From Methylobacterium sp. J-068 (lineage in GTDB: Bacteria; Pseudomonadota; Alphaproteobacteria; Rhizobiales; Beijerinckiaceae), in assembly GCF_022829445.1 (NCBI RefSeq), contig NZ_JAKSXY010000122.1:434001-498000 (forward strand): a DNA stretch of 64,000 nucleotides. The letters are read 5' to 3'. Below are positions 24,979 through 29,878 of the stretch, piece by piece. Position 1 is the stretch's first letter. Each line of letters opens with the position of its first letter. A program made the position numbers and the translations under genes. The notes beneath the pieces were generated by a model, which saw only the letters and a program-made list of their open reading frames with translations, did not search any database and was not told the origin of the DNA.

Positions 24979-26409
24979 CTATTCCGCCGCCGGCGTGTGT
25001 AGCGACAACAGGCGGGCCGTGCGGGCATGGTCCACGGCGCGGCCTCCCTCGGCCCCCGTATCGCCGAGATTGCGCCGCTCGTCGTTGATCGCGGCATGCA
25101 CCGCGTCGATGGCGAGGATGAGGGCGCTGACCGTGCGGTTGTCGATGTTGCGCTCGCGGGCGTGCTGGACGACGTCGGAGACGAGTTCGTCGGTCTCCCG
25201 CACGAGGCCGTCGAGATCGGCCTTGGCGGTGGCGGTCCGCACTTCGCGCAGGATGTCGAGGAGGCGGTCGAGGACGATATCGATGCGCTCGCGCCGCTTG
25301 CGGGCGAGGCGCTGCGCGATCCAGGCGACGCCCGAACCGACCGTGCCGCCGAAGAAGGCGAGCAGGTAGATGTAATCCTCGTAGCGCTCGAACATCGTCT
25401 GCTGCTCGCGCTCGAAGTAATCCACCGCCCCCGGATGGTTCGGCAGGCGGGCGCTGGTGGCCGCCACCGTCGAATCGAAATCGGGCGCCTTCATCAGGTT
25501 GGCGATGGGTGCGAGCGGCGCCAGCTTCGAGCGCCACTCGAACAGGTGCTGGGTCACCGAGGCGACGGTGAAGCGGCTGACGCCGCCTCGCGCCATCAGC
25601 CGGTAGGAGGCCCCCACCGTCTTAACGTCCTCGTCGGGACGCTTGGGGCGACCGCCGAAGGTGCCGGCCGGGATGGTCACGGATTGCAGTTCCGGCATCC
25701 GCTGGATGATGGCCTCGCCGTCCGAGACCGAGACGAAGGTGATCTTCTTCTCGGCGGAGGCCGCCTCGACCGCACGCACCGTCGAGATCGCAGCCTTCGA
25801 GGCCGGAGCGGCGATGACCGCCACGGCATCGACCCGCCCGTCCGCGATGGCGCTCGTCACCTCGTTGGGCTTCAAGGGTATGAGGGCGACGCGGGCCAGG
25901 CCGAGAACGACCTCCGGTCCGGCCTCGCCCGGCGCCTGGGGCACGAAGTCGTAGAAGCCGAGCAGGTTCGTCAGGAACGGCAGGTCGGCCGCATGTCGCT
26001 CCACCACCCCGAGGCGCTTGCGCGCGAGGTCGGGAAAACTCTCGATTCCGGCCGCCTCGGGAGCGGCGATCAACAGGGCCTCGTCGTGCAGGATGGCGAG
26101 CGTCAGGCCGTTCTCGGGCAGGAGCACGTCGGGCCGGACCACCGCGAGATCGGCCTTGTTGCGCTGAAGCGCCTCGGCACTGTCGCGGACGTCGTCGTAG
26201 AAATTCAGCTTGAGGCGCACATCTTCATGGCCGCGGGCGAGCGCCTGCGCGTAGGTCTGCAGCAGCACCGCCTCCGCGCCCTCGCGCGGGCCGACCGCCA
26301 CCGTGAGGGTGGTGGGCCGCGACAGGTAGACCAGCATGCCCGCCACCATGGCGAAGCCGAGCGCCAGGAGGACGAGAAGCCACTCGCGTCTCACAAGGAA
26401 TGCCGGCAT
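24979..26409 (-). CDS. TAXI-family TRAP-type solute-binding protein with C-terminal membrane anchor
   Basis: 476-residue protein. An N-terminal helix (WLLVLLALGFAMVAGMLVYL) is followed by a TAXI-type binding domain (TLTVAVGPREGAEAVLLQTY). A second hydrophobic segment (YIYLLAFFGGTVGSGVAWIA) near residue 375 is followed by a charged cytosolic helical tail (RKRRERIDIVLDRLLDILRE). No TRAP DctQM permease genes lie nearby. The anchored layout looks more like a sensor or orphan binding protein than a transporter subunit. ATG 26409 is chosen since the upstream extension lacks any sign of coding character. Confidence 0.83.
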   Translation of the reverse strand: MPAFLVRREWLLVLLALGFAMVAGMLVYLSRPTTLTVAVGPREGAEAVLLQTYAQALARGHEDVRLKLNFYDDVRDSAEALQRNKADLAVVRPDVLLPENGLTLAILHDEALLIAAPEAAGIESFPDLARKRLGVVERHAADLPFLTNLLGFYDFVPQAPGEAGPEVVLGLARVALIPLKPNEVTSAIADGRVDAVAVIAAPASKAAISTVRAVEAASAEKKITFVSVSDGEAIIQRMPELQSVTIPAGTFGGRPKRPDEDVKTVGASYRLMARGGVSRFTVASVTQHLFEWRSKLAPLAPIANLMKAPDFDSTVAATSARLPNHPGAVDYFEREQQTMFERYEDYIYLLAFFGGTVGSGVAWIAQRLARKRRERIDIVLDRLLDILREVRTATAKADLDGLVRETDELVSDVVQHARERNIDNRTVSALILAIDAVHAAINDERRNLGDTGAEGGRAVDHARTARLLSLHTPAAE

Positions 26410-26489
26410 GACAGGCTCGCGCTTTTGTCCCGCGTGATCACCATCTTGAGAGGCCCGCTCCCGAAACACATCCGGATCGTGATGAACCG

Positions 26490-27095
26490 ATGACACTGCG
26501 AAATGTTGCGTCGCGCGCTCCCGGGAAACCGCCGGCCGACGACCGACCGGCCGAGATCAAGCCGCCACCGCCGGTCACGCCCGCCTACCTGGAGCGCGCG
26601 GCGCTTCATTACCTCGAACGCTACAGCGCGTCCGTGGCGATGCTGCGGCAGACCCTGAAGCGCCGGGTGGACAAGCGGTGCCGCCTGCGCGGCGAGGAGG
26701 CCGGCGCTTTCGCGGAGGCGATCGAGGCCACGGTGGCGCGCGCGGTCGCCGCGGGCCTCGTGGACGATGCCCGCTTCACCGCCGGCCGCCTGGCGGCCCT
26801 GCGCCGGCGCGGCGCCTCCGCTCGCGCCGTCTCGGCCAAGCTCGCCGCCAAGGGCGTGTCGCGCGCGCAGGTGGAGACCGCCATGGAGGAGGAGCGCGAG
26901 GCGGCGGATGCGGGCACCGATCTCGAGGAGGCCGCCGCGCGGGCCTACGCCAAGCGCCGGCGGCTCGGCCCCTGGCGCCGGCCGGAGACCCGCGAGGCGT
27001 ATCGCGAGCGTGACCTCGCCGCGATGGCGCGGGCCGGCTTCGGCTACGGCCTGGGGCGCCGGATCATCGAGGAGGCGCCGGACGACCCGGCATGA
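26490..27095 (+). CDS. recX: Regulatory protein RecX
   Basis: 201-residue RecX, which binds RecA filaments and limits recombination. Core motifs of the three-helix repeats are visible: YLERYSASVAMLRQTLKRRV, LVDDARFTAGRLAALRRRG and SARAVSAKLAAKGVSRAQVE, then a GFGYGLGRRII tail. It is slightly longer than average because of a proline-rich N-terminus. recA is not adjacent. The gene is divergent from the TAXI protein and lies before the repair genes at 27180-29878. Confidence 0.9.
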   Translation: MTLRNVASRAPGKPPADDRPAEIKPPPPVTPAYLERAALHYLERYSASVAMLRQTLKRRVDKRCRLRGEEAGAFAEAIEATVARAVAAGLVDDARFTAGRLAALRRRGASARAVSAKLAAKGVSRAQVETAMEEEREAADAGTDLEEAAARAYAKRRRLGPWRRPETREAYRERDLAAMARAGFGYGLGRRIIEEAPDDPA

Positions 27096-27179
27096 GCCTG
27101 CGACAACCGGGCATCGGACAGCGCCGGGAATTCACCGCGAGCGCTTGAACGAATCACGAACGAAGCGCATTTCCGAGGG

Positions 27180-28394
27180 ATGGACGAGACGCTCGCGAAG
27201 AAGCTGCGCATCCTTGCCGATGCCGCCAAGTACGACGCCTCGTGCTCCTCTTCCGGGGCGCCGAAGCGCAGCGCCGGCAAGGGCGAACTCGGCTCCACCA
27301 CGGGCGCCGGCATCTGCCACGCCTACACGCCGGACGGGCGCTGCATCTCGCTCCTGAAGATCCTGCTGACGAATTACTGCCTGTTCGACTGCGCTTATTG
27401 CGTCAACCGCCGCTCCTCCAACGTGGCGCGGGCGAAGTTCAGCGTCGAGGAGGTCGTGACCCTCACGGTGGAATTCTACAAGCGCAACTACATCGAGGGC
27501 CTGTTCCTCTCGTCGGGCATCATCAAGTCGCCCGATCACACGATGGAGCTGCTGACGCGGGTGGCCAAATCCCTGCGGCGCGACCACGGCTTTCGCGGCT
27601 ACATCCATCTGAAGTCGATCCCGGAGGCGAGCCCGTGGCTGATCGAGGAGGCGGGCCTCTATGCCGACCGTCTGTCGATCAACGTCGAGTTGCCCACCGA
27701 GGCGAGCCTGGAGCGCCTGGCGCCCGAGAAGAACGGCGCCGTCATCCAGAACGCCATCGCGCAGATCGGCGAGCGGATCACGCAGGCCAAGTCCGAGAAG
27801 CGCCGGTTCTCGCCGGCCGGGCAATCGACGCAGGTGATCGTGGGCGCCGATGCCACGACGGACGAGGCCCTGATCCGCAAGAGCGCGCTTCTCTACGGCT
27901 CGTACAACCTGAAGCGCGTCTATTACTCGGCCTTCAGCCCGATCCCGGACGGCTCGACCATCCTGCCCCTGAAATCGCCGCCGCTCCAGCGCGAGCACCG
28001 GCTGTACCAGGGCGACTGGCTGCTGCGGTACTATGCCTTCACTCCCGACGACGTCGCGGACGCGACCGAGGACGGGATGCTCTCCCTCGACATCGATCCG
28101 AAGCTCGCCTGGGCGCTGAAGCACCGCCACCGCTTCCCCGTCGACGTGAACGCCGCCGACCGCGAGATGCTGCTGCGGGTGCCGGGCCTCGGGGCGCGGG
28201 CGGTCGACAAGATCGTCCGGGCGCGGCGCCATACCCGGCTGCGCCTCGACGACGTCGCCCGGCTCACCTCGGCCCTGAAGCGGGCGCGGCCCTTCCTGAT
28301 CACGGCCGATTACCATCCCGCCGGCGGACTGACCGACCGCCTCGATCTCCGCGCGCGACTGGCCGATCCGCCCCAGCAGCTGAGCCTGTTTTGA
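27180..28394 (+). CDS. Putative DNA modification/repair radical SAM protein (TIGR03916-type)
   Basis: 404-residue radical SAM protein. The 4Fe-4S motif is NYCLFDCAYC (Cys67, Cys71, Cys74; CxxxCxxC), followed by VNRRSSN and the GLFLSSGII SAM-binding region. A C-terminal helix-hairpin-helix (LLRVPGLGARAVDKIV, about residues 325-345) suggests DNA binding. This is the family paired with DUF4130-UdgX proteins in many bacteria and predicted to act in DNA repair or modification; no reaction is established to my knowledge. The next gene starts two bases after its stop, so the pair is co-translated. Confidence 0.92.
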   Translation: MDETLAKKLRILADAAKYDASCSSSGAPKRSAGKGELGSTTGAGICHAYTPDGRCISLLKILLTNYCLFDCAYCVNRRSSNVARAKFSVEEVVTLTVEFYKRNYIEGLFLSSGIIKSPDHTMELLTRVAKSLRRDHGFRGYIHLKSIPEASPWLIEEAGLYADRLSINVELPTEASLERLAPEKNGAVIQNAIAQIGERITQAKSEKRRFSPAGQSTQVIVGADATTDEALIRKSALLYGSYNLKRVYYSAFSPIPDGSTILPLKSPPLQREHRLYQGDWLLRYYAFTPDDVADATEDGMLSLDIDPKLAWALKHRHRFPVDVNAADREMLLRVPGLGARAVDKIVRARRHTRLRLDDVARLTSALKRARPFLITADYHPAGGLTDRLDLRARLADPPQQLSLF

Positions 28395-28396
28395 GG

Positions 28397-29878
28397 ATGA
28401 ACCGGCGCCTGGATCCCCCTCCCCCCGGCCCCGCGCAGGAGGGGAGAACGGGTGGTGGGCCGCTCGAAGCCGTGTTCCTGCGCGCGGGCGCCGACCTCGA
28501 CGGGTTTCGCGCCGCCACCCGTCGCCTCGCCGGGCGGGGCGTTCCGCCCGAGCGGGTGCTCTGGTCCATCGGCGAAACGCCCGGGCTGTTCGGCGAAGCC
28601 ACGGACGGCCCCGCCGCCGAAGCCCCCTTGCGCCTGCCGCGCGGGATCGCCGAGATGGTCGGCGCGGTGGTGCCGCACCGCGATCCGGAACGCTACGCCC
28701 TCCTCTACGAACTGATCTGGCGCATCCTGCAGGGCGAGCGTCGACTCCTCGAAGTGTCGAGCGACCCGCTGGTCCACCGCCTGGAGCGGATGCGCAAGGC
28801 GATCGGCCGCGACCTGCACAAGATGCACGCCTTCCTGCGCTTCCGGCGGGTCGAGGCCGAGGGGCCGGAACGCTTCGTGGCCTGGTTCGAGCCCGACCAC
28901 CACATCCTGGCCGCCGCCGCGCCGTTCTTCGTCGGGCGTTTCCGCGCCCTGACCTGGACGATCCTGACCCCCGAGGCCTCCGTGTCCTGGGATGGCACCA
29001 CCCTGACCTTCGGGCCGCCGGGCCGGCGCGAGGACGCACCGGCCCATGACGGCTTCGAGGCGGGCTGGCGCGATTACTACGAGAGCACGTTCAACCCCGC
29101 CCGCACCAACCTCACCGCCATGCGGGCCGAGATGCCGAAGAAGTACTGGCGCAACATGCCCGAGACCGCCGCGATTCCGGGCCTCGTCCGGCAGGCGGCG
29201 GCCCGGACGGGCGCCATGATCGAGAGGGAGCCGCAGATGCCGGTCAAGCGCAACCCCGCCCGGGCCGTCGCCGCGATGGCCGACCAGGCCCCGGACTCAC
29301 TGGAGGCGCTCAATGCCATCATCAGGCGTTCGGAGCCGCTGGTGCCGGGCGCGACCCAGGCCGTCCTCGGCGAGGGGCCGGCGGGCGCCACCATCGCCTT
29401 CGTGGGCGAACAGCCGGGCGACCAAGAGGATCGCCAGGGGCGTCCCTTCGTGGGACCGGCCGGGCAGTTGCTGTCGCGCGCCATGGGCGAGGCCGGCATC
29501 GCGCGCGGCGAGGCCTACCTCACCAATGCGGTCAAGCACTTCAAGTTCGAGGAGCGCGGCAAGCGCCGCATTCACCAGAAGCCCACGGCCGGCGAAGTCA
29601 GCCATTACCGCTGGTGGCTCGAGCGCGAACTCGAGTTCGTCGCGCCGAAGCTCGTGGTGGCCCTCGGCGCCACCGCCGTGCTGGCCCTGACCGGCAAGGC
29701 GATCCCGATCACCCGGGCCCGTGGACCCGCGCAGTTCGAGAAGCCCTATGCGGGCTTCATCACCGTGCATCCCTCCTACCTGCTGCGCCTGCCGGACGAG
29801 GCGAAGGCCGAGGCCTACGCCGCCTTCGTGGCCGACCTGCGCCGGGTCCAGGAACTCGGGCAGTCGCTACGGGTATAG
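28397..29878 (+). CDS. DUF4130-UdgX fusion: UdgX-family uracil-DNA binding protein
   Basis: 493-residue fusion. Residues ~20-275 form the DUF4130/TIGR03915 domain (YALLYELIWRILQGERRLLE, GRDLHKMHAFLRFRRVE). Residues ~290-493 form a UdgX-type uracil-DNA glycosylase domain with FVGEQPGDQEDRQGRPFVGP, TNAVKHFKFE and the loop GKRRIHQKP. In mycobacterial UdgX the His of KRRIH becomes covalently bound to abasic sugar after uracil removal; here this is His393. The whole protein contains no cysteine, so the Fe-S cluster cysteines of UdgX are missing. It is coupled to the radical SAM gene by a two-base gap. Confidence 0.9.
   Translation: MNRRLDPPPPGPAQEGRTGGGPLEAVFLRAGADLDGFRAATRRLAGRGVPPERVLWSIGETPGLFGEATDGPAAEAPLRLPRGIAEMVGAVVPHRDPERYALLYELIWRILQGERRLLEVSSDPLVHRLERMRKAIGRDLHKMHAFLRFRRVEAEGPERFVAWFEPDHHILAAAAPFFVGRFRALTWTILTPEASVSWDGTTLTFGPPGRREDAPAHDGFEAGWRDYYESTFNPARTNLTAMRAEMPKKYWRNMPETAAIPGLVRQAAARTGAMIEREPQMPVKRNPARAVAAMADQAPDSLEALNAIIRRSEPLVPGATQAVLGEGPAGATIAFVGEQPGDQEDRQGRPFVGPAGQLLSRAMGEAGIARGEAYLTNAVKHFKFEERGKRRIHQKPTAGEVSHYRWWLERELEFVAPKLVVALGATAVLALTGKAIPITRARGPAQFEKPYAGFITVHPSYLLRLPDEAKAEAYAAFVADLRRVQELGQSLRV

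Follow-up and report, generated by a model that had tools for sequence, protein, structure and literature searches.

The open reading frame at 28397-29878 of the window (the whole 64,000-nucleotide stretch of DNA analysed here) most probably encodes a functional covalent UdgX, fused to a DUF4130 domain, that has lost its [4Fe-4S] cluster. We give this reading a probability of about 0.78, judging from sequence comparison and structure prediction. The features of the fusion are as follows.

28397-29878, + strand: DUF4130-UdgX fusion, 493 aa with zero cysteines, from the ORF translation
28490-29167, + strand: DUF4130 / TIGR03915 domain, residues 32-257, 193.5 bits against a cut-off of 112.25
29174-29848, + strand: UdgX domain TIGR03914, residues 260-484, 299.7 bits against a cut-off of 189.95
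29318-29350, + strand: loop IIRRSEPLVPG, residues 308-318, at the place of the former CxxC ligand loop by alignment
29405-29419, + strand: motif A GEQPG, residues 337-341, a sequence motif
29537-29539, + strand: His381 of KHFKF, present at the putative fourth cluster-ligand position, from conservation
29561-29575, + strand: R-loop KRRIH, residues 389-393, with the predicted crosslinking His393, from conservation
29606-29608, + strand: Tyr404, at the site of the third ligand cysteine by alignment
29768-29788, + strand: motif B HPSYLLR, residues 458-464, from conservation

The translation bears out the sequence-only reading in its description of a 493-residue DUF4130-UdgX fusion without cysteine. 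The motifs it named are in place, GEQPGDQED from residue 337, TNAVKHFKFE from residue 376 and KRRIHQ with His393 from residue 389, and the stretches it pointed to at the expected ligand sites are found at residue 308 (IIRRSE) and residue 402 (SHYRWW). By alignment, the IIRRSEPLVPG loop is two residues shorter than the loop of relatives with CxxC, as it is in most of the window's clade. The UdgX signature is described as R107 and H109 together with Q53, and the cluster ligands are not part of it in the passages of PMC10359453 that give it. The window protein carries the corresponding Q339, R391 and H393. It has none of the three cysteines of the [4Fe-4S] ligand trait, so it is placed in UdgX only as a cluster-free variant. 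With the family 4 UDG model TIGR00758 it scores 111.2 bits, below the cut-off of 125.3. The gene was found in all 59 Methylobacterium genomes searched, the window's own included, and M. bullatum has a protein that is 80% identical. Relatives at E values up to 1e-20 occur in 392 plasmid records, including Azospirillum replicons whose fusions are 62-66% identical, which indicates that the gene is often located on secondary replicons. Among viral contigs, a search that reaches close relatives only gave six pattern matches, none of which encodes a relative.

To describe the ligand sites, we examined 290 loci, of which 282 contain a UdgX-like ORF; 269 of these are unique, and 263 have both Q53 and H109. 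Not counted are eight loci without a UdgX match (L138, L139, L141-L144, L146, L150), 13 loci identical to others, three family 4 UDGs (L002, L030, L031) and three loci in which Q53/H109 is absent from the open frame read (L029, L098, L147). The last 150 residues differ between every pair of the 263. The proportions below are not natural frequencies, as the queries were mostly proteins without the cysteines and 56 of the 114 sequences without them come from the window's genus. The three cluster cysteines, namely those of CxxC and the cysteine of C-(R/K)-W-W, are all present in 149 sequences and all absent in 114, and no sequence has one or two of them. Cysteines present only sporadically, which the sequence-only reading had named as refuting it, were thus looked for in these 263 sequences and not found. 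The third site is Tyr in 108 of the 114, Glu in three, and Gly, Asp or His in one each; the codons there are TGC/TGT for Cys and TAC/TAT for Tyr. The first site is variably Ser, Ala, Tyr, Gly, Arg or Met in 27 representatives without the cysteines. A replacement set of conserved ligands was also sought, and none appears at these two sites.

The earlier statement that UdgX holds its cluster by four cysteines proved imprecise, because UdgX with cysteines has three conserved ones and an invariant histidine, the His of KHF (149/149). We infer, from conservation and comparison with family 4 UDGs, that this His is the fourth cluster ligand; the family 4 enzymes presumably have Cys in its place. Of the 114 sequences without the cysteines, 100 keep His at the site and 14 have Arg, and Arg is restricted to such sequences, which fits the assignment, as Arg replaces His only where the cysteines are gone. 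Because the His is kept in those 100, it must have a further role, or be tied to the cluster less closely than assumed. Three stand-alone UdgX proteins without the cysteines (L090, L091, L092) have KRF for KHF and Glu at the third-Cys site, and their genomes also carry a fusion with the cysteines. As a separate observation, the family 4 UDG of the window's genome (L002, G000:C84:86589-87095) carries Cys in just two of the three ligand columns, as do those of relatives in the same order (L030, L031); all three lack a residue in the loop-ligand column, so loss of the cluster may extend to some family 4 UDGs of Alphaproteobacteria.

The absence of cysteine from the whole protein is weak evidence on its own, because Cys-free ORFs are not rare in the window. 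With Cys at its mean frequency in the window, 0.89%, a random protein of 493 aa would be Cys-free with p of about 0.012, but a crude set of 48 gene-like ORFs from the window, which does not include the fusion, has five that are Cys-free. Among the window's ORFs of at least 350 aa the proportion is 1/19, the one being the neighbour at 24979-26496, a 505-aa NMT1_3 protein. Members of the same clade as the window fusion (L004-L009) have one or two stray cysteines elsewhere in the protein. What goes beyond chance is the loss at three aligned ligand columns, not the overall lack of cysteine. Chance and sequencing artefact were rejected as explanations on the basis of the 114 unique sequences.

The active site is retained in these sequences. 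All 114 keep E52, D59, F65, N91, K94, R107 and H178, and 113 keep D56; Q53 and H109 were the entry criterion here. These residues are among those that PMC10776899 lists as important in M. smegmatis UdgX. In 27 representatives of the main clade without the cysteines, for which H109 was not used in the choice, H109 and Q53 are present in 27/27, and so are R391 and H393 of the R-loop and H458 and R464 of motif B. For M. smegmatis UdgX, activity was reported as not detected for Ala mutants of D59, F65, N91, K94, R107 and H178 (PMC10776899). The UdgX domain is under strong purifying selection in Methylobacterium, with dN/dS of 0.046-0.149 over nine comparisons; DUF4130 gives 0.14-0.242, and UdgX lies below DUF4130 in each of the nine. 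A pseudogene was rejected on these values. The AlphaFold2 model of the fusion has a mean pLDDT of 88.9 and a pTM of 0.59, and from residue 301 on the pLDDT per ten-residue block is 84-98. In a structure search with this model, the matches listed align to the UdgX half. The four best rows are M. smegmatis UdgX (Z 26.8-27.1, rmsd 1.7-2.0 over 196-204 residues), and the other matches listed are entries of the UDG superfamily or phiLo polymerase. In the last of these (PDB 9qhs, a family A DNA polymerase), a UDG-like stretch matches the UdgX half with Z 16.4. When the model was compared with that of a fusion bearing the cysteines (L192), by secondary structure and pLDDT only, no clear difference was seen at the cluster site.

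The fusion lies directly downstream of a radical SAM gene with a SOS box.

27147-27161, + strand: LexA/SOS box GAACGAATCACGAAC (GAAC-N7-GAAC), a perfect match, with 18 nt between it and the start codon of the radical SAM gene
27180-28394, + strand: radical SAM partner, TIGR03916 (rSAM_link_UDG), 404 aa, 549.6 bits against a cut-off of 343.5

The names of TIGR03914, TIGR03915 and TIGR03916 link one another, so the gene set is a known unit. The CxxxCxxC motif of the partner starts at residue 67, and partners in named Methylobacterium loci are up to 97% identical. In two other loci (L176, L214) the best partner match is without CxxxCxxC. Four of the loci with a DUF4130 match and no UdgX match in the stretch examined (L141, L142, L143, L150) have a radical SAM gene with an upstream SOS box. 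One paper describes DUF4130 as an enzyme predicted to be mutagenesis-related and links it to UDGs and to radical SAM proteins like SplB (PMC3765255). Directly 5' of the operon, at 26490-27095, is a recX-like gene with a RecX_HTH2 match of 24.5 bits, slightly below the Pfam cut-off of 26; a match to this gene is also seen in five named Methylobacterium loci.

Box-like sites are no commoner than chance in the window (35 sites with at most one mismatch, two of them perfect, against 39.5 expected), so it is the position of the box that counts. A perfect GAAC-N7-GAAC or GTTC-N7-GTTC was found in 146 of 158 unique upstream regions, counted from -250 to +30 nt around the estimated start of the radical SAM gene, where about 0.005 perfect boxes per region are expected from the rest of the same loci. 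By group, it is present in 68/69 regions without the cysteines, 71/82 with them and 7/7 others. Stenotrophomonas, a gammaproteobacterium with a different LexA box, accounts for four of the 12 regions lacking a perfect one. We take COG4277 to be the TIGR03916 protein. The alphaproteobacterial LexA motif is GTTC-N7-GTTC, and SOS control of the COG1573-COG4277 operon (UDG and partner) has been reported in Alphaproteobacteria and Verrucomicrobia; for Bacteroidetes it is a prediction (PMC8565304). SOS control has also been predicted for a gene named splB in alpha- and betaproteobacteria (PMC3323433), whose product may be a different radical SAM protein. SOS control of the operon in the window's lineage is supported by the conserved box and is not new.

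A cluster-free enzyme is not the only way to read the missing cysteines. The sequence-only reading had offered, as one option, that the role of the cluster passed to the radical SAM partner, so that Fe-S would be supplied in trans. The partner does hold CxxxCxxC, and its gene is at most 300 nt away in 95 of 99 fusion loci without the ligand cysteines (81 of 104 with them). However, the partner has six near-invariant cysteines, C67, C71 and C74 of the SAM motif together with C22, C46 and C55, and the same six are found in 96 rows from loci without the ligand cysteines and 96 from loci with them (matches over 340 residues), with each cysteine present in 99% or more of the rows of either group (192 in all). 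No gain of cysteine in the partner is thus tied to the loss of ligands in UdgX, and none of the 11 stand-alone UdgX copies without the cysteines has the partner gene in the stretch examined, although the upstream stretch is short for four of them. The hand-over was rejected on these grounds, and we consider it highly improbable. C22, C46 and C55 may hold a second cluster in the partner. A different metal site, with Zn, or with Fe bound through His, Asp or Tyr, could also replace [4Fe-4S], and the His381 and Tyr404 shared by most members would be candidate ligands. We regard this as very unlikely in view of the variation at the first and third ligand sites and the 14 sequences with Arg for the KHF His. 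Alternatively, the UdgX domain may have become a catalytically weak or dead binder of uracil-DNA after losing the cluster. In M. smegmatis, H109 variants are reported to lose crosslinking and gain plain excision, which makes the steps separable (PMC10359453). This view is at odds with the kept active-site residues and with selection that is stronger on UdgX than on DUF4130 in Methylobacterium, and we find it unlikely, if less so than the two proposals above.

The cluster seems to have been lost more than once. With the ligand columns removed, 27 UdgX domains without the cysteines, in fused and stand-alone forms, fall into one clade with support 100/99, the one to which the window protein belongs. 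Among the best 80 of 582 relatives, 28 are without the cysteines and 52 have them, and 21 of the 28 belong to this main clade by their loop. Its named members within those 80 are Methylobacterium, Microvirga, Azospirillum and Ancylobacter, and its MAGs there are named Bosea, Enterovirga, Hyphomicrobium, Rhodovastum and Enhydrobacter, with others named less precisely. Three further groups were found, in Belnapia/Acetobacteraceae (L198, L199, L200, L209, L215), Sphingomonas (L218, L254, L256) and Parasphingorhabdus (L240, L284-L290). When these groups are added, the best trees require four losses, and one tree five, with separate losses in Belnapia/Acetobacteraceae and twice in Sphingomonadales. 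The trees and the loops suggest four losses, and at least two are likely. Both states also occur side by side: four genomes (G190, G224, G228, G185) each have a fusion with the cysteines and a stand-alone UdgX without them, G473 has the reverse, and L254 (without) and L255 (with) are from the same genus. The absence of the cysteines is therefore not a failing of the host.

The rival account is a single loss that spread by exchange of the UdgX domain, which we hold to be a real possibility, at well under even odds. Tests on the whole fusion speak mostly against it. One clade of all sequences without the cysteines gives p=0.003 with 39 rows, main clade plus Belnapia plus L218 gives p=0.003, main clade plus Belnapia plus the Sphingomonas group gives an AU p of 1.7e-5, and the two sphingomonad groups together give p=0.004; the loops without the cysteines also differ between groups in sequence and length. 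On the other side, all sequences without the cysteines as one clade give p=0.072 with 71 rows, and on UdgX columns alone the values rise to p=0.056 for main clade plus Belnapia plus Sphingomonas, a marginal result, and p=0.333 for the two sphingomonad groups, which is no rejection. A tree in which main clade and Belnapia are constrained together scores better than the unconstrained tree (p=0.69, 71-row whole fusion), and neither main clade plus Belnapia plus L240 (p=0.386) nor main clade plus Belnapia plus the Parasphingorhabdus group (p=0.215) is rejected. We note that the groups tested for a single origin were named once the trees were known, so the p-values look better than they should. A single clade for the Sphingomonas group is not rejected either (p=0.289), and this clade is recovered on UdgX columns with support 96. 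L256 groups with L218/L254 on UdgX columns and not on the whole fusion. This is the pattern expected from domain exchange, and it suggests that sphingomonads have exchanged the UdgX domain.

We return to the preferred reading, a covalent UdgX without its cluster. The proposal that the uracil chemistry runs without Fe-S holds as far as comparison of sequences can carry it, as the ligand cysteines are lost as a set, the active-site residues are kept and the domain is under purifying selection in Methylobacterium; the absence of the cluster and the intact covalent chemistry are both inferred. The cluster thus appears dispensable for crosslinking to uracil-DNA. Upon DNA damage, LexA repression at 27147 would be relieved, leading to joint production of the fusion and its radical SAM partner. 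The UdgX domain would find and excise uracil, and His393 would bond to the remaining deoxyribose to form the crosslink, in the way that His109 of M. smegmatis bonds to deoxyribose (PMC8070346). The cluster site may be closed by protein packing around Tyr404 with no metal, and the resulting enzyme would need no Fe-S assembly and be immune to cluster oxidation. Our guess is that the benefit lies in doing without Fe-S assembly and in withstanding oxidation under stress.

It is still debated whether the Fe-S clusters of DNA repair enzymes have a structural role or serve as redox wires in charge transport along DNA, and redox activity has been reported for the family 4 UDG of Archaeoglobus fulgidus (PMC9266487). 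The sequences described here provide matched pairs in nature, in which fusion, operon and SOS box are alike and the cluster ligands are either present or absent. Such pairs exist within a genus (L254/L255) and, as fusion against stand-alone form, within the four genomes named above, and comparing them would test the purpose of the cluster. A broader proposal, to which we give slightly less than an even chance, is that the cluster is a removable structural part, shed several times in SOS-inducible alphaproteobacterial UdgX, with all ligands going at once and mostly a Cys-to-Tyr plug. These enzymes would then be oxidation-proof suicide crosslinkers, and the cluster-free twins would show that uracil search and crosslinking can do without charge transport along DNA. 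Mycobacterial UdgX has been used as a uracil-DNA probe (PMC8070346), and a Cys-free and metal-free UdgX might be handier for this purpose.

Earlier work had already established UdgX, its fusion to DUF4130, the operon and the SOS control of that operon. Our literature searches on UdgX, UdgX Fe-S and UdgX cysteine found no cluster-less UdgX, and a mention in the 2015 discovery paper or the two 2019 structure papers is possible. Searches for Fe-S loss in general found nothing pertinent beyond the review PMC9266487, and a search for TIGR03915 found nothing. Among known systems, M. smegmatis UdgX (6AIL, 6IOD, 6AJO and others) is like the fusion in fold, in GEQPG, in KRRIH with the crosslinking His and in HPS..LLR. 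It is described as a stand-alone protein with 4Fe-4S (PMC10359453), whereas the window protein is fused to DUF4130 and has no ligand cysteine. The family 4 UDGs of Thermus thermophilus (1UI0, Z 24.8) and Thermotoga maritima (1VK2, Z 25.0) are alike in overall fold. Unlike the window fusion, this family has motif A as GE(A/G)PG, no R-loop His and the cluster present (PMC10359453). A parallel outside the superfamily is the zincless finger of human NEIL1, a glycosylase that likewise lacks the metal ligands of its relatives and keeps the structural element (PMC9266487), but there the element is a Zn finger and not a [4Fe-4S] site. Also known are the TIGR03915-TIGR03914 fusions with cysteines, together with TIGR03916 (the SOS operon COG1573-COG4277). 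They share architecture, operon, LexA box and active site with the window fusion, but hold CxxC and the cysteine of C-(R/K)-W-W, neither of which the window fusion has.
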